Source: a virus
Virus record (IMG/VR): IMGVR_UViG_3300036861_000403
Location: 1-43,463 of that record
Reading direction: 5' to 3' (one strand)
Length of the DNA stretch: 43,463 nucleotides
A program made the position numbers and the translations under genes. Under the pieces are notes generated by a model, which saw only the letters and a program-made list of their open reading frames with translations, ran no database searches and had not been told where the DNA came from. Position 1 is the stretch's first letter. Each line of letters starts with the position of its first letter. Positions 14,717 to 21,612 of this stretch are shown piece after piece.

Positions 14717-14952
14717 CCGATCTCCACGAAGTGTTCTACACACCTTCGCCGTGGGAACTCTTGGAACAAGAACTCAACCGGCGCAACATTAGGCGCGGCA
14801 CGTCGCGCAAGTACCACCACCCCGCCGCACACAAGCGCGCTGCCTACGCACGCCTGCCACGGTGTTGGGGTCGCACGCGCTCGGGCGCGCGGTGTCGGTT
14901 GGCGTGCGTCGTTGGATACGCGCGTTGCGGTGCGCATCTGGAGCGGCCATGA
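14713..14952 (+). CDS. Small zinc-binding hypothetical protein
   Basis: A 79-residue basic protein. The C-terminal part has CWGRTRSGARC...RCGAH, a pattern of Cys and His seen in small phage zinc-binding proteins of the GRTRxGxxC type. The N-terminal half is helical with RRNIRRGTSRKYHH. It overlaps both neighbours by ATGA. DNA or RNA binding is likely but unproven. Confidence 0.6.
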   Translation: MTDLHEVFYTPSPWELLEQELNRRNIRRGTSRKYHHPAAHKRAAYARLPRCWGRTRSGARCRLACVVGYARCGAHLERP

Positions 14953-15356
14953 AGCCCGCAAAGCCCGACGCCGAGCTGATTCCGTGGGACGAGATTCCCG
15001 ATCCGCCAGAGCCCACCCCCGCAATCATCGTGGCGGCGAGCGACGGAGCTGAGCGCATTGCCGCCGAGCGCCAACGTCAGGTCGAGAAGGAAGGCTGGAC
15101 AGCTGAGCACGACGCTGACGAACACGCCCAGGGCGATCTCGCATGGGCGGCCGTTTGCTATGCGGCGCCCGAGCCGATCTATCGTCGGTTTGGTTCTGGA
15201 GAACGAATCAATTTCGAAGACCCCTGGCCGTGTGACTGGGAAGACAAGCGCCCACGTAGACAGCCTACGCGCAAGCAGCGAATCCGCATGCTCGAGAAGG
15301 CCGGTGCTCTTGTCGCTGCCGAGATCGATCGGCTGCTTGGCGAGGAGACACCATGA
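14949..15356 (+). CDS. dATP/dGTP diphosphohydrolase N-terminal-domain-like protein
   Basis: A 135-residue protein. The core ERIAAERQRQVEKEGWTAEHD, a GDLAWAAVCYA helix and a final LEKAGALVAAEIDRL helix match a small all-helical phage family named dATP/dGTP diphosphohydrolase N-terminal (PF18909, from memory). The proposed activity is hydrolysis of purine dNTPs, adjusting nucleotide pools. The N-terminal 35 residues, MKPAKPDAE and PTPAIIVAAS, are shared with the next gene and encoded by partly identical DNA. Confidence 0.6.
   Translation: MKPAKPDAELIPWDEIPDPPEPTPAIIVAASDGAERIAAERQRQVEKEGWTAEHDADEHAQGDLAWAAVCYAAPEPIYRRFGSGERINFEDPWPCDWEDKRPRRQPTRKQRIRMLEKAGALVAAEIDRLLGEETP
15010..15043. repeat. 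34-bp direct repeat, copy 1
   Basis: Identical to 15651-15684 and encoding PTPAIIVAAS in the same frame in both genes. It marks recent recombination or segment copying between the two neighbours. Confidence 0.9.
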
Positions 15357-15982
15357 AGCCCAGAAAGCCCGACGCTGAGTCTCGTGCGGTTAGTACGAAA
15401 TTTCGCAAGCGCCCCGTCACAATCGACGCCACGCAGTGGTGGCCAGGACTGGCCGTCGATGGCGTGTGCACAAAGCCAGATGTAAACACTTGCTTTGGGC
15501 AGCGAGACCCGAACGACGTAGCGCCGCATGTGCATACGTTGGAGGGATTCCACCTCGTTAGTCCCGGCGATTGGATCATCACCGGTGTGCAAGGGGAAAG
15601 GTATCCGTGCAAGCCTGATATTTTCGATGCCACGTACGAAACCGCCGCGAAGCCCACCCCCGCAATCATCGTGGCGGCGAGCGAGAGCGACGCGGAGGTG
15701 TTGCGCCAGGCACAGGAGCATCGGCGTAGGTGGCATCTGAATCCAATTCGACCAGTGGACAATGCACTCATTCGCGCCCGCATCGTCGGAGGCTCGACTC
15801 ACGTGTGTCTGCCGCGCGCGGTTATATTCGAAGCGATAGAAGCGAGGCGAGCTGCAGTCAGCTCCGCACGTCGTCACTACGACAAGGGCACATGGCAGGA
15901 TGGCTGGGCCGACGGCGTAGCCGCCGTTGTCGACGAACTTCGCGCCCTGCTCGCCAAGCACGACGGAGAGGTGAAGCCGTGA
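15353..15982 (+). CDS. Phage protein with PGDWII module, chimeric
   Basis: A 209-residue protein of three parts. Residues 15-95 form a common phage module: KFRKRPVTIDATQWW near the start, then GFHLVSPGDWIITGVQGERYPCKPDIFDATYE. Its biochemical role is unknown. Residues 98-110 repeat the PTPAIIVAAS linker of the upstream gene. The last 100 residues are helical, with RRHYDKGTWQDGWADG and AVVDELRALL. The first residues, MKPRKPDAE, also copy the upstream gene. It therefore looks assembled from segments. It overlaps both neighbours. Confidence 0.65.
   Translation: MKPRKPDAESRAVSTKFRKRPVTIDATQWWPGLAVDGVCTKPDVNTCFGQRDPNDVAPHVHTLEGFHLVSPGDWIITGVQGERYPCKPDIFDATYETAAKPTPAIIVAASESDAEVLRQAQEHRRRWHLNPIRPVDNALIRARIVGGSTHVCLPRAVIFEAIEARRAAVSSARRHYDKGTWQDGWADGVAAVVDELRALLAKHDGEVKP
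15651..15684. repeat. 34-bp direct repeat, copy 2
   Basis: Identical to 15010-15043. It falls in the linker between the PGDWII module and the helical C-terminal part of the gene at 15353-15982. Confidence 0.9.
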
Positions 15983-16249: not shown

Positions 16250-17569
16250 TCAGAGCAACGTTAGGTTCATCCCGATCCCGTCGATGTACGCGTCCCAAGG
16301 AAAGTTCGCGCCAGGATCCTGGTGAGTCGTAGTACCCGGAAACGCCCGCGTGACGTCGCTGTGGCCGTAGATCCCCGGCAAACCTTCTCGCAAGTCCAAC
16401 CACGATCCCTTGCGCACTGGAATCTCCCACCGCTTGCACCAGTGCGCGATGAACAGCGTCGCGAGGTCGCGTTGCGCCAAAGAGTAAGCGTCTGCCCACT
16501 CTACTGCGCTCTGCCGCGCGCGGCCGGTGAGCTCCAGGTGCAGTCCTCTTTCGTGCGCCGGGGATTGGCCGACAGCCCACGCGCGATCCTCGTCCTGTAC
16601 GCTCCGCGCGATCGAGTTATTGTCGATCGCGACGTGCCACGACGCGTTGATGTCGCCGCGCGCCCAAGCTTGCAAGTCCTCTGCTGCGGTCCCGGTCTCG
16701 GCACATTCCCCGGTATGAAGAAACACCTTGTCCGGCGGTCCGAACGGCCGGCCCGGCTGGTAGTCGTGGGCCTGGCGGAACGTGATCAACGGCAGCGCCG
16801 TGCCCAGAGACACCATCTCGTCCGTGTCGTGGGGCACGATCGGAGGTGGTGGGATCGCTGGGATCGGTGTTCGCGCGTCGCCGCGCTCCAGGCCTCGATC
16901 TTTCAGCCAAGCCACCGTTGCGCGCTCGGTCATAGGCCCGTGCTTGCCGTCGATTGGGCCGGGTGAATAGCCTTGATCCCTAAGGTATTGCTGCCACGTT
17001 GCCACCCCGAACGAGTGATCGCCGGGCGACGTGATCGCCGGTGGCGTTTCACGTGTCGGCGTCTCGTGCGGGCTCAAGTCACGCTCCAGCATCGTCGTCG
17101 TCCCGTCGTCGAAGTGGTCGCGGTTGTGCGCCACGGCGTCGGGTTGCCACCACGTATTGCGCGCGGTCGACCACCAGCCCATCAAGCGACTCCGCCCCTC
17201 AGGCGCGCCGTCGATCCAGTGCTTGCCACAGTTCGCCACCAGCGACTGCCCGTCCCACCCTCGCGCTTTGAGTTGACGCCACATATCTTGGTCGTGCGCG
17301 CGGTAGTGCTCTATGTCTGTTTCTGCGGTTGGCGTTCCAAGGAACGGCACGAGCTCCAACGCCTGTGCGTGCAAGGCTCGAACAGTGTCCGCCGACACGA
17401 GGCGCGCGCCGTACCGGACGGCCACCTGCAACGCATCGGCGTAGGACAAGCGTGCGAACAAGTCCGTCTGCTCCGAATCCAGAAGGGGGAGGCACGTCAC
17501 TTCGACACGTCCGATCGGCGCCCAGCCGCTCATGTGGACGACTGCGTCAGCGGGCTTGGTTCGATACAT
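16250..17569 (-). CDS. Endolysin: N-acetylmuramoyl-L-alanine amidase with peptidoglycan-binding domain
   Basis: A 439-residue modular lysin. The N-terminal 170 residues form a domain I do not recognise (ADALQVAVRYGARLV, then GKHWIDG and WWSTARNTWWQ). Residues 187-228 are a peptidoglycan-binding type 1 repeat (WQQYLRDQGYSPGPIDGKHG). Residues 262-435 are an amidase type 2 domain with VFLHTGE (a zinc-ligand His), GHSDV and HQDPGANFPW. The predicted action is cutting the amide bond between N-acetylmuramic acid and L-alanine of the host wall at lysis. It is the last gene of the late unit, next to a second wall-active gene, a lipoprotein and a holin. Confidence 0.85.
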   Translation of the reverse strand: MYRTKPADAVVHMSGWAPIGRVEVTCLPLLDSEQTDLFARLSYADALQVAVRYGARLVSADTVRALHAQALELVPFLGTPTAETDIEHYRAHDQDMWRQLKARGWDGQSLVANCGKHWIDGAPEGRSRLMGWWSTARNTWWQPDAVAHNRDHFDDGTTTMLERDLSPHETPTRETPPAITSPGDHSFGVATWQQYLRDQGYSPGPIDGKHGPMTERATVAWLKDRGLERGDARTPIPAIPPPPIVPHDTDEMVSLGTALPLITFRQAHDYQPGRPFGPPDKVFLHTGECAETGTAAEDLQAWARGDINASWHVAIDNNSIARSVQDEDRAWAVGQSPAHERGLHLELTGRARQSAVEWADAYSLAQRDLATLFIAHWCKRWEIPVRKGSWLDLREGLPGIYGHSDVTRAFPGTTTHQDPGANFPWDAYIDGIGMNLTLL

Positions 17570-18167
17570 GGCCTGCCTTCGTTGAGCGGAAAACGGTGAG
17601 AGCCTTGGCGAATCCTCGCAGCCTGGCGTTCACGCGACGGTCGTTCGACACCAACGTCGGGAGGCCTCCGTAGACATTGATAGTGCAGCGATCACGGTCG
17701 CGCGCCCCGACGAACGTACAGTACGACCGCGCGCGCATGAGATCGCCACCTGCCGTGGCCGCGGCGCGACGCATCGACAGCAGGTCGAGGCCGACGAGGT
17801 CGCGCCCGAACCACCCGCGCGACGTCGTGCCGGCACCCAAGAGTCTTTGAAACACCCCCCACGACATACCCTTGTCGCCGCGAGCGTGCTTGCCTTGGCC
17901 GGTTTGAACGTCGCGCCGGCCGCCGCTTTCACCGTGCCACACGGCCGCCATGAGCGCCGCGAGCACGCGTTGCCCGCCTGAGACTTCGGCAATCGCCTGC
18001 GCAACCGTACGCCGGCGGTCGTGGCATTCCGCCTGCGTTTCCGGCCGGCAGCCGTTGGTGTGGATCGAGTCGCACACCACACCCGCACGTTCGGGCACGG
18101 CGTTATACACGCTCGGCGCGCACGGCTGCAGCGCCAGCAAGGCGGCTAGGACGGCGTCGGGGGTCAC
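17547..18167 (-). CDS. Putative lytic transglycosylase-like wall hydrolase
   Basis: A 206-residue protein. It has VLAALMAAVWHGESGG, in which the Glu would be catalytic as in soluble lytic transglycosylases, then DKGMSWGVFQRL and further helices with a YCTFVGARDRDRC Cys pair. This resembles the lysozyme-like fold with E-S and G-x-x-Q signatures. An apparent signal-like hydrophobic start (VLAALLALQPC) could direct export. It overlaps the endolysin gene by 23 bases. It could be a virion-associated or secondary lysin. The assignment is moderate. Confidence 0.55.
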   Translation of the reverse strand: MTPDAVLAALLALQPCAPSVYNAVPERAGVVCDSIHTNGCRPETQAECHDRRRTVAQAIAEVSGGQRVLAALMAAVWHGESGGRRDVQTGQGKHARGDKGMSWGVFQRLLGAGTTSRGWFGRDLVGLDLLSMRRAAATAGGDLMRARSYCTFVGARDRDRCTINVYGGLPTLVSNDRRVNARLRGFAKALTVFRSTKAGHVSNQAR

Positions 18168-18601
18168 AACACTTGATCCGCTGGCGGCAACACGAACGGC
18201 TCAGGCTTGGGTTCGTTCGTCTCGGCCCCGCCCATTGGCGGTCTAGCAGCCGTGATGCCGAGGTCGTCCAGCAACGCTTTGAGCGCGGCGTACGCGTCGC
18301 GGGCAGCGCTGCGCGCGAGTTCCACGTTGCCGTCGTCAACGCTCTTGGCGGTCTTGATGGCGGCGTCCAGCGCGGCGCGCGCGAGACGAGCCTTACGTAG
18401 AGCGTCGAATACCGCGCGCTCGGTTTCCTGGTTGGGGTGCCGGGCGAGGTAGGCTGCCGCGCCGTCCTCCGCCACGTCGGTCACGGCACCGAGGTACTGA
18501 CTGCCCTGCGAGAGCGCTTGCAGGATCCCCGGCAGCGCGGCGCAGCCCATCCCTGCGTAGATCAGGATCGCTGTAAACACGATTGCGACGAGGTACCTCA
18601 T
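18164..18601 (-). CDS. Lysis-cassette lipoprotein, outer-spanin candidate
   Basis: A 145-residue protein with a hydrophobic N-terminus and a lipobox-like AGMGC (Cys20). A long Ala-rich helical region follows (about residues 45-115), with a Pro-rich tail. It sits between the holin and wall hydrolase genes, overlapping both by ATGA/GTGA. A lipoprotein in this place fits an outer spanin, although it is longer than most and helical rather than Pro-rich throughout. The membrane-anchored coiled-coil protein at 20051-20368 could be its inner partner. Confidence 0.6.
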   Translation of the reverse strand: MRYLVAIVFTAILIYAGMGCAALPGILQALSQGSQYLGAVTDVAEDGAAAYLARHPNQETERAVFDALRKARLARAALDAAIKTAKSVDDGNVELARSAARDAYAALKALLDDLGITAARPPMGGAETNEPKPEPFVLPPADQVL

Positions 18602-18855
18602 GACGGTTTCGAACCGAGACCCAGCGTGGTCTTGCCGAAGTCGTAGGCAGCCATAGCGACAGTCGCAGCTACGACACCAGCCGTAACCGCATCGACCCAA
18701 CCCTTTCCCAACGCAAGGTTGTCCACAACCGCCGACACCGCGCCGAGGAGAACAGCGACGATCGGCAGGTAGCGGGTTGGAAACCACCGGCGAGAGAGTT
18801 GAGTGAGCAGAGCAATAACAGCAGCGGCGAGCGCGACGAATGCAGGTTGGCCCAT
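18598..18855 (-). CDS. Holin candidate (three predicted membrane helices)
   Basis: An 85-residue protein. It has hydrophobic segments at about 5-18, 27-45 and 52-72, a basic loop (SRRWFPTRY) and a short polar C-terminus. Size, topology and position beside the endolysin support a holin that opens the inner membrane at lysis. No exact family is recognised. It overlaps the neighbouring genes as TGATG and ATGA. Confidence 0.7.
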   Translation of the reverse strand: MGQPAFVALAAAVIALLTQLSRRWFPTRYLPIVAVLLGAVSAVVDNLALGKGWVDAVTAGVVAATVAMAAYDFGKTTLGLGSKPS

Positions 18856-19460
18856 CAGTCCACTTTACCACGCTGTTTCCAGAGTTTCTCACCTGTTTTT
18901 TCGAGCTGCTTCCAGCGCTGTCCGAGTACGGTGCGCTCACCGCGCATGGCCTCGGGACTACGCCCGTCCCACGAGGTGGAGCGGGCTGCAATGCGTTCGA
19001 TCTCGTCGGCCACCGCACGGCACTCAAGAGCGCGCTTGATGTCGAGCATGCGCCGCCCTTGTGATGTCTTGGAATCGGCAGCGTTCGCATCGAGCTCCTG
19101 TGCGTACTGCTCCAATCGGATTATGAGATCGGCCGCCCGGCCGCGAAGTGTGCCCGCCTCGACCGGCGTGTCGTCCGTGATCTCAGCCTCACGCTCTTGC
19201 AGGCTCGTCAACGCGCGTTGGCTGTCGTAGTCGTACTGCAAGATCTGCGCACGAACGTTCTCCAACCGCACCGGCGGAATACTCCCGGGCGCGCGGAGTT
19301 CGATCGCCATGTCTTCCAACACCGGAGCGTGCTGCAGTTGTCGACGCAGGAACGGCGCGGGGTCGCCGTGTAGGAGCGCCAGCGCGCGGCGCCGATTGAC
19401 GATGTCGCGGTACCGCAACGCCACACGCTCCGCCAGCGTCGCCAACTCCAACCGGTCCAC
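18855..19460 (-). CDS. Hypothetical helical protein next to the receiver protein
   Basis: A 201-residue, nearly all-helical and highly charged protein with long coiled-coil-like stretches (for example SQRALTSLQEREAEI and IRLEQYAQELDAN). Its C-terminal third is rich in Arg/Lys. No family is recognised. The start is GTG at 19460, with only a weak ribosome site, 4 bases after the receiver gene stop. That close linkage suggests it could be a partner or output of the receiver protein. Confidence 0.65.
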   Translation of the reverse strand: MDRLELATLAERVALRYRDIVNRRRALALLHGDPAPFLRRQLQHAPVLEDMAIELRAPGSIPPVRLENVRAQILQYDYDSQRALTSLQEREAEITDDTPVEAGTLRGRAADLIIRLEQYAQELDANAADSKTSQGRRMLDIKRALECRAVADEIERIAARSTSWDGRSPEAMRGERTVLGQRWKQLEKTGEKLWKQRGKVD

Positions 19461-19464
19461 TCGG

Positions 19465-20058
19465 CTACTCTAGCGCGAGCAGGTCGCGCATGAGTTCTAG
19501 GAGTTCGGCGTTCGTGAAGCTGCCCTTTTGCAGGTAGCGACTCGCGCCACACGCCTGGGTGGCCGCGCCGGTCGTGTCCTCGTCGTCTAAGACGCCTGAG
19601 ATCAGGATCGCCGGCGTTGAGCCGTGGACGCCGTTCTGGTCACGCATCCAGCGAATGACGTCCGCCCCCGAGCCTTCACCCAGCAGGCGATGATCGCACA
19701 CAACGATGTCGTACACGTTGCGCGCGAGACGGAGCAGCGCTTCCTTGTACGATCGCGCTGTGTCGACGCGCGAGAATGCCGAGAGAAATACGCGTTTCCA
19801 GGCGCGCTGCAAGTTTTCGTCGTCCTCCACTAGGAGTACAACGACGGCTTGCGCCATCTGTCGTGCTTGCATCGCCTTGCACGTGCGAATGGCAGCTGCA
19901 ACGGCTTCCTTGAGTTCACGGTCGGCACGTTCGAGAGGTTCGCTGGCGATCTCAATGCGCGTGGTTGTATCTGGGTCGATCGAAACTGGTGGTTCGGAGA
20001 TCGGCCGCTCGCTCGACACGCCTCGCAAGGTCTTGTCGGCCCCGCGCGCCTTAGTCAT
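19465..20058 (-). CDS. Phage-encoded response-regulator receiver (CheY-like) protein
   Basis: A 197-residue protein. The C-terminal 125 residues form a complete receiver domain: VLLVEDDE (acids D79, D80), DIVVCDHRL (phospho-acceptor D122), ILISG (S154) and YLQKGSF (K178). All five key positions are kept, so it could accept phosphate from a host histidine kinase. The N-terminal 70 residues are polar then helical (LERADRELKEAVAAAI) and may mediate dimerisation or binding. No DNA-binding output domain is present. The gene lies in the late operon between the lysis and portal genes. ATG at 20058 overlaps the previous gene by 8 bases. A 13-residue longer form from 20097 is less likely. Confidence 0.85.
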   Translation of the reverse strand: MTKARGADKTLRGVSSERPISEPPVSIDPDTTTRIEIASEPLERADRELKEAVAAAIRTCKAMQARQMAQAVVVLLVEDDENLQRAWKRVFLSAFSRVDTARSYKEALLRLARNVYDIVVCDHRLLGEGSGADVIRWMRDQNGVHGSTPAILISGVLDDEDTTGAATQACGASRYLQKGSFTNAELLELMRDLLALE

Positions 20059-20368
20059 TGCCTGAGTCCCTACGACCGTACGTCGCGTTCCACTCACGAA
20101 CGAGGCGAGCGATCTCGTTCAACGCACCCACCGATTTCTCCAACACCTTCGTGGCCATGTGCAGGCGCTTGGAATGAAGCTCTGTAATCTCGGCTTGCTG
20201 GTCCGCTGCGTGCTCGCGCCAGCGCTTGTCAACATCATCCAACTGCTTGCGCGCGGCATCGAGGTCGCTGATCAACCGGCCGCGGTCGAGCTTCCACAGT
20301 GCAGCAATCACCCCAGCCAACACCGTGACGAGCGTGGTGGCGATGGCTAGAACGATCTCGACGGTCAC
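20051..20368 (-). CDS. Membrane-anchored coiled-coil protein, inner-spanin candidate
   Basis: A 105-residue protein with one N-terminal membrane helix (about residues 3-25) and a long charged coiled coil (30-85). This topology, N-in with a periplasmic coiled coil, fits an inner spanin (Rz-like), which would pair with the lipoprotein at 18164-18601. A late structural helper is an alternative. The GTG start at 20368 overlaps the portal stop as GTGA. Confidence 0.6.
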   Translation of the reverse strand: MTVEIVLAIATTLVTVLAGVIAALWKLDRGRLISDLDAARKQLDDVDKRWREHAADQQAEITELHSKRLHMATKVLEKSVGALNEIARLVREWNATYGRRDSGND

Positions 20369-21612
20369 GGCGCCACCGGTGCCGGAGCGGGAGGCCGGCG
20401 CAGCACTTCCGTTTCCGCCCGCACCTTCTCCGTGTCCGCCTGCTCCTTTTCCGTCGGCTGCCAGAGCGGCGCGTACTCGATCGTCCACTCCGTCGGAAAC
20501 GGTTTCCCGCGCTTGGCACGGAGCGCAAAGTAGACCTCAAGGAGGCGGTTGAGTGCCGGCGTCAACACCTTGCGCTGTTGTGAGGCCACCGAGTCGAACC
20601 ACGATCGGACCTCCGCATCCGCCGTGGTGTTGAGTCCGCTAGGCTGTTCACCCAAGAGGATCACTCGTGGGATGCCGGTCGCGCGCACGAGCGCGTCAAC
20701 GAACCGGCCAATCAACGCGTCGAGGCCTTGGGTCGAGCGCGTCTGTTCGTCGTAGGTATCGGCCACGTCGTGGACGAGCAGATGAAGGTTGTCGATGGCC
20801 CAACGGATCGTTTCAAAGACTTGCTTGAGTTCCTGGCGCCCCTGCGCGCTGCCGGCCGCCTTCGTCCGGAAGTCTTTGATCCCCAGTTTCATGACGCTGA
20901 GCTCATGAAGGATCGCCTCCGCGTAGCCCATGGTCGCGCCTAGACGCTTAAGCTCGGTCCACACCCGGTCGAGCACGCTCGGCCCCCAGCCGTTACGTAC
21001 GACGAGGCGGGACGGCGGCACGCGTAGACCATCGAACCGGATCACGCGCGAACGATGCACCGCGCGCTCTCCACCCATCGGGGACGTCAGGCGGTAGATC
21101 TCTGGTCGCCGGAAGCTTTGGTTACCTAGGCCTCTGGCGAACATATCAGGCTGTGCGAACGGCCGTTCAACCACCAAGAGAGAAAGGATCTGCGTGGCGC
21201 GTGAGAGATCCAAAGGCTTGTCGATCGGCGTGCCGTCGTTCACCACCATGACGCACACGGCTCCGCCATAGAGTCGACTCCAACGCCACGTATCACCCAA
21301 CTGTTCGAGTACCTGCAAGTCGTCCAGCTCGCTCTGAACTTCTTTCCAGTCGAACGATTCGTCCACTCCCGTGAGCGCGAACGGCTCGCGTGTGGCGTCG
21401 TCCACGACGCGATCCACGATGCGCGCGGCCATGGCCTCCTGCTCGTAGAGGGTATCGAGTTCCTGCGTGGTGAGATCGGTCACCCGCCCGGCTTGGGTCC
21501 AAGAACTCTTGTCGCCTGTCGTCCCGAGCGCGGTCGCGAGGTTGATGTAGTCGTCGGCGTGTCCACGACCGTTGTCGTTCTGCTCGGCATTCGGGCGACC
21601 GTTGTCGTTCAT
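20365..21612 (-). CDS. Portal protein, DUF1073 family
   Basis: A 415-residue protein. It contains motifs seen in DUF1073-type portals: YEQEAMAARIVDRVVDDATREPF near residues 58-80, a WSRLYGGAVCVMVVNDG segment, YRLTS, HRSRVIRFDG, and GIPRVILLGEQPSGLNTTADAE (about 335-355). The portal forms the dodecameric ring through which DNA enters and leaves the head. The gene overlaps terL by ATGA. The C-terminal tail is Pro/Ala-rich and somewhat truncated compared with longer portals. In Pfam this family carries an anti-CBASS Acb1-related name, but no such catalytic domain is present here. Confidence 0.85.
   Translation of the reverse strand: MNDNGRPNAEQNDNGRGHADDYINLATALGTTGDKSSWTQAGRVTDLTTQELDTLYEQEAMAARIVDRVVDDATREPFALTGVDESFDWKEVQSELDDLQVLEQLGDTWRWSRLYGGAVCVMVVNDGTPIDKPLDLSRATQILSLLVVERPFAQPDMFARGLGNQSFRRPEIYRLTSPMGGERAVHRSRVIRFDGLRVPPSRLVVRNGWGPSVLDRVWTELKRLGATMGYAEAILHELSVMKLGIKDFRTKAAGSAQGRQELKQVFETIRWAIDNLHLLVHDVADTYDEQTRSTQGLDALIGRFVDALVRATGIPRVILLGEQPSGLNTTADAEVRSWFDSVASQQRKVLTPALNRLLEVYFALRAKRGKPFPTEWTIEYAPLWQPTEKEQADTEKVRAETEVLRRPPAPAPVAP

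Follow-up and report, generated by a model that had tools for sequence, protein, structure and literature searches.

Holin timing is usually seen as an intrinsic clock, to which the periplasmic antiholin RI of phage T4 is a rare sensory exception. Together with the LytSR/LrgAB system, in which LytSR works via transcription and no receiver is found in a lysis operon, RI illustrates how lysis or murein-hydrolase activity can be made responsive to a signal, as we propose herein for a receiver protein encoded in a phage lysis operon. In fold, catalytic residues, and the missing output domain, this protein resembles CheY and other single-domain response regulators (PF00072); it differs from CheY in that its gene is part of a phage lysis operon and comes without a cognate kinase. 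Phage receivers are already known but rare. The closest described examples are from Alteromonas phages, for which the receiver of R8W was published as PhoB, those of V22 and A5 as CheY-like auxiliary metabolic genes (AMGs), with "histidine kinase/response regulator" as a further label, and those of A5 and V22 were placed within a host recognition module (PMC8228385, PMC7289586, PMC10579305). No lysis role was proposed for these genes, and among papers readable without a subscription we found none tying such receivers to lysis; a lysis-operon class of phage receivers appears to have gone unrecognized so far.

The stretch of DNA analysed (43,463 nucleotides; IMG/VR record IMGVR_UViG_3300036861_000403; hereafter "the window") ends in 244-bp direct terminal repeats, and the record thus represents a complete genome. 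The presence of a tail sheath gene makes this 43-kb phage a myovirus; tape measure, baseplate, major capsid, and DUF2213 protease genes are also encoded, with a family-A polymerase, an exonuclease, and a helicase coded on the opposite strand. A 34-nt direct repeat occurs in three copies at a spacing of 161–170 bp in the early region (626–990); around 15 kb, an exact 34-nt direct repeat (15010–15043 and 15651–15684) and a near-exact 29-nt direct repeat (14946–14974 and 15350–15378) lie near the boundary between the two transcription directions. The closest terminase/portal relatives of the phage show ~50% identity. In the nearest of these, the portal gene is followed by a different and larger gene (303–393 aa; 367 aa in the comparison with L017, L021, and L023), probably for a minor head protein, whereas the portal gene of the window is followed by the lysis operon instead, with no minor head protein recognised there.

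PF00072 was absent from all 92 portal/terminase relatives searched (many of these records being fragments), from which the receiver gene looks like an accessory acquisition. Close homologues of the window receiver were found neither in phages at E 1e-3 nor in viral contigs, with two weak phage matches emerging at E 10, and at E ≤ 1e-3 the receiver fold was matched by only 29 viral models in BFVD, many of them from giant or algal viruses. Receivers are thus rare in phages, as a reading of the sequence alone ("the sequence-only reading") had held. Absence from these relatives and the lack of close homologues are also what would be expected of a neutral gene (i.e., a moron) that arrived by chance in dispensable DNA separating the portal gene from those for lysis. 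We consider this improbable, given the intact active site and tight translational coupling of the gene, the recurrence of its arrangement in unrelated phages, and the purifying selection detected in those relatives, all described below.

The receiver open reading frame (19465–20058, minus strand, 197 aa) is genuine, running from an ATG at 20058 to a stop at 19465, with GC contents by codon position (0.68/0.46/0.73) that are coding-like and in line with those of adjacent genes. An alternative GTG start at 20097 would yield a 210-aa protein; the ATG, which leaves an 8-nt overlap with the upstream gene, is the likelier start. Response_reg (PF00072) covers residues 74–188 (3.4e-13; 50.2 bits, cut-off 30.2), phrog_731 matches at 3.5e-10, phmmer against the PDB retrieves receivers at 4e-5, and many receiver-containing NCBIfam models match, each under its own cut-off. 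The complete receiver that the sequence-only reading had described is present residue for residue: (i) an acidic pair, D79/D80, following β1 (codons 19819–19824; D79 invariant in alignments), (ii) the predicted phospho-acceptor D122 at the end of β3 (19693–19695; at least 90% conserved in alignment A2), (iii) S154 at the Thr/Ser switch position ending β4 (19597–19599), and (iv) the conserved K178 ending β5 (19525–19527; at least 90% conserved, and invariant in alignment A5).

With an alignment of 12 receiver sequences as input (single-sequence input gave a pLDDT of 39), AF2 predicts a (β-α)5 receiver fold with five helices across residues 73–196 (19471–19842), most block means lying at pLDDT 87–97 and the greater part of the domain exceeding 90. 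Strands are assigned to residues 73–77 (β1), 97–101 (β2), 118–122 (β3), 150–154 (β4), and 174–177 (β5), and D79/D80, D122, S154, and K178 occupy the catalytic positions in the model. All 50 matches listed by Foldseek against the PDB were receivers or receiver-containing proteins (TM-score up to 0.93), the best among these being PmrA (TM-score 0.91 by target, E 1e-9). The receiver assignment holds for the modelled structure as well, whose fold resembles those of CheY and PmrA. A 70-residue helical N-terminal extension had also been described, which is only partly right because the confidently predicted helix is confined to residues 40–69 (19852–19941), with residues 1–39 modelled as low-confidence, disordered-looking coil. 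Relative to CheY, both segments are additions, and K178 is followed by Gly where Pro is usual. The receivers of R9Y and R8W are instead extended by a C-terminal tail.

A phage-associated receiver of another kind, cREC (PF20274), has been described (PMC7824862), raising the alternative of a cyclic-phosphate-processing enzyme belonging to phage NAD+/RNA conflict systems. The window protein does match cREC_REC weakly (2e-5), but the 25.4 bits obtained fall under the cut-off of 27 and far below the score for PF00072. Gene neighbourhood differs too, none of the window proteins scanned being of the NADAR, Macro, or Nudix type, and the top viral fold matches in BFVD are CheY-like. As fold and profile both favour an ordinary receiver, we find the cREC alternative scarcely credible.

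In agreement with the sequence-only reading, searches with Pfam, PHROG, and NCBIfam profiles found no output domain in the window protein, REC being its sole domain and the rest consisting of residues 1–70; nor is a C-terminal winged-helix DNA-binding domain of the PhoB type evident in its sequence or AF2 model. By domain content, the gene encodes a single-domain response regulator, with phosphoryl transfer to the Asp predicted. This composition bears on the published annotation of R8W, V22, and A5 (PMC8228385, PMC7289586, PMC10579305), under which such a protein would be an auxiliary metabolic or transcriptional regulator that adjusts host gene expression during infection, e.g., in the phosphate response. 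As a DNA-binding domain is lacking in the window protein and in the other stand-alone receivers (125–153 aa) alike, a transcriptional AMG is disfavoured, and the placement of these genes within or beside lysis genes further argues against this role, which we judge quite improbable.

The window genome encodes one receiver only, and domain searches found neither a histidine-kinase ATPase (HATPase_c) nor an HPt in it; the receiver is hence not accompanied by a phage-encoded cognate kinase or HPt with which to form a two-component pair. As the phage is without a kinase, the phosphate would come from a host histidine kinase or a small phosphodonor. A lone receiver with an intact active site, no output domain, and no phage kinase would also suit a decoy or phosphate sink, which would drain a histidine kinase of the host of its phosphoryl groups and so silence a host response (e.g., to envelope stress or in defence), with the late-operon location merely setting the time of expression. 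Such interception had been suggested from the sequence and is a possible role, but late expression is ill-timed for blocking host signalling, and a decoy would leave unexplained why such receivers repeatedly occur within or beside lysis genes, why an upstream membrane gene is conserved, and why contig L103 has a membrane fusion (see below). We thus regard a decoy as rather unlikely.

As the sequence-only reading had indicated, the receiver gene is located between portal and lysis genes, within or beside those for a holin and an endolysin, in the order portal > TM-coil > receiver > coil > holin > lipoprotein > lysin-like > amidase, all on the minus strand. Profile searches identify the portal protein (20365–21612; PF06381, 2e-69), the holin (18598–18855; phrog_1299, 2e-9), and an endolysin with peptidoglycan-binding and amidase domains (16250–17569; PF01510, 1e-13; phrog_12609 endolysin, 4e-33). 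The lipoprotein (18164–18601), with a lipobox-like AGMGC motif and no Pfam match, is a possible outer spanin, and the lysin-like gene (17547–18167), lacking a family match, encodes a putative peptidoglycan-cleaving (transglycosylase-like) protein; both assignments derive from sequence and position. Portal stop (TGA) and TM-coil start (GTG) overlap as GTGA; TM-coil and receiver genes overlap by 8 nt, receiver and coil genes are separated by 4 nt, coil and holin genes overlap by 1 nt, holin and lipoprotein genes overlap as ATGA, and the subsequent overlaps are of 4 nt (lipoprotein/lysin-like) and 23 nt (lysin-like/amidase). As neighbouring genes overlap or adjoin all the way from portal to amidase, the receiver belongs to what is apparently a translationally coupled lysis operon.

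Two helical neighbours flank the receiver gene. The downstream one (18855–19460), for a probably coiled-coil protein of 201 aa, had been put forward as the receiver's partner; this is not supported, as the protein has no family match, no detectable relatives, and no counterpart in the other receiver-bearing phages described below. The neighbour that does recur is the gene directly upstream (20051–20368), which encodes a 105-aa protein with one N-terminal transmembrane (TM) segment (residues ~5–23) and a hydrophilic, probably coiled-coil tail, and is likely the partner of the receiver. No family match was obtained for this TM-coil protein in the profile search. In size and coil/TM plan it is comparable to XhlA/hemolysin-type coil-TM lysis proteins; however, its TM segment is N-terminal and homology to that type is not detectable.

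Searches from receiver sequences led, via weak receiver matches, to stand-alone receivers in the Alteromonas siphoviruses R9Y and PB15/XX1924, the Autographiviridae R8W and H4/4, the Schitoviridae phage A5, and the myovirus V22. All of these, along with that of L103, lie within or beside a lysis cassette; for a further one, from Alteromonas phage V19, the lysis context is ambiguous. In R9Y1, the order is fibre > TM-coil > receiver > GH108 lysozyme, an R9Y-type arrangement that recurs in four further IMG/VR contigs; in R8W and H4/4 (and L119, an H4/4-type record), it is fibre > holin > TM-coil > receiver > membrane protein > terminase. A5 displays TM-coil > receiver > Rz-like protein > 2-TM protein > endolysin, and V22 (Myoalterovirus) papain-like amidase > TM-coil > receiver > Rz-like protein > 2-TM protein. 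In PB15, a hemolysin-family coil-TM gene (phrog_937, 2e-16) precedes the receiver, followed by an M15 peptidase and GTA_holin_3TM; XX1924 begins its cassette identically (coil-TM > receiver). The genes annotated as PhoB or CheY-like AMGs (R8W, H4/4, V22, A5), like the receiver genes found in R9Y1, PB15, and XX1924, thus share with the window receiver a place within or beside the lysis cassette and an upstream gene combining TM and coil, with the TM-coil architecture and position of the window protein reproduced in R9Y, R8W, H4/4, V22, A5, and V19.

In L103 (IMG/VR 3300018083_000104), a siphovirus contig carrying tail genes of lambda type, the receiver likewise heads the lysis cassette, but receiver and membrane domain form one polypeptide: L103:8001–8777 encodes a receiver joined to a phrog_8980-like domain with multiple TM segments, and the genes directly after it are those for a LydA-like holin and a GH19-like endolysin. 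Without a receiver, this TM domain is found beside prophage lysis-type genes on two contigs (L127 and L130) of one bacterial genome, and the L103 protein therefore looks like a fusion of a receiver with a lysis-region membrane protein.

Left out of the count were many "phage" receiver matches that came from bacterial or unannotated records or represented ordinary OmpR/PhoB regulators; L107 and L102 were rejected as lysis-type receivers, being ordinary OmpR-like regulators. Stenotrophomonas phage Bhz63 (L112:3489–5035) encodes a PhoP-like response regulator with an adjacent kinase-like gene, outside a lysis context. Two public labels look wrong, i.e., "hybrid sensor histidine kinase" (L106:6001–6450, 149 aa) and "DNA-binding response regulator" (L108:3501–3962, 153 aa), as each protein is a receiver only.

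A small gene encoding one terminal TM segment lies directly upstream of the receiver in 5/5 annotated genomes, where such genes make up 8–16% of the total; the corresponding chance product over the five genomes (8e-6) is only indicative because the class was defined after the cases were seen, and overstates the case because lysis regions are enriched in one-terminal-TM genes and because the receivers of R9Y and R8W are related to each other, as are those of V22 and A5. The cases are for this latter reason not all independent, and the TM-coil neighbour may be incidental, given how often lysis regions encode one-TM coiled-coil proteins. Among the Alteromonas relatives, purifying selection acts on both the receiver and the TM-coil genes (dN/dS <0.3 where estimable). 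Alteromonas-type receivers are similar to many cellular receivers, as expected of captured host genes, and share 15–21% identity with the window receiver. Beyond the receiver fold, no sequence homology was detected between the window module and the others, with TM-coil proteins alike in architecture only (tblastn); the parallel thus rests on architecture and position, not on sequence, and the window module is either very diverged or convergent. Convergence, if true, would strengthen the functional reading.

The V19 receiver (L110:3998–4450) is degenerate, having lost the phospho-Asp and the Lys, yet is still preceded by a small TM-coil gene; phosphorylation would therefore not be essential in every member. 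Along with the fusion in L103 and the Gly after K178, this fits a phosphorylation-independent scaffold or antiholin-like chaperone, in which the receiver fold would serve only for protein binding, capping either the TM-coil protein or a lysis protein encoded nearby. The acidic pair, D122, and Lys are nonetheless kept in the window protein and in nearly all others, which would be needless for a mere scaffold; we hold this alternative to be unlikely.

The reading we prefer, to which we give close to an even chance, is that a captured receiver tunes lysis post-translationally through the TM-coil protein encoded at 20051–20368. In this mechanism, the phage would have acquired a single-domain response regulator from a host and incorporated it into its lysis operon; the protein would be produced late, along with the holin. 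A histidine kinase of the host, or a small phosphodonor (e.g., acetyl phosphate), would then phosphorylate D122, and the phosphorylated (or unphosphorylated) receiver would bind the cytoplasmic coil of the upstream membrane protein. Such binding would either advance or delay holin triggering, thereby coupling the time of lysis to the signalling or energy state of the host. That the receiver might tune lysis timing had been one suggestion of the sequence-only reading; it gains strong comparative support from the unrelated phages with receivers in or beside their lysis cassettes, from which we infer the effect itself.

Somewhat more tentatively, we suggest an unrecognized class of lysis regulators, in which unrelated tailed phages would have repeatedly recruited receivers so that host kinases or metabolic phosphodonors set the moment of lysis; the pairing or fusion of these receivers with small lysis-region membrane proteins, as a trait of the class, is proposed with the same reserve. 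This would also suggest what the genes labelled "PhoB/CheY AMG" do in cultured Alteromonas phages. If a receiver indeed acts within the lysis operon, lysis would be directly responsive to a host phosphorelay or to the energy state of the cell.
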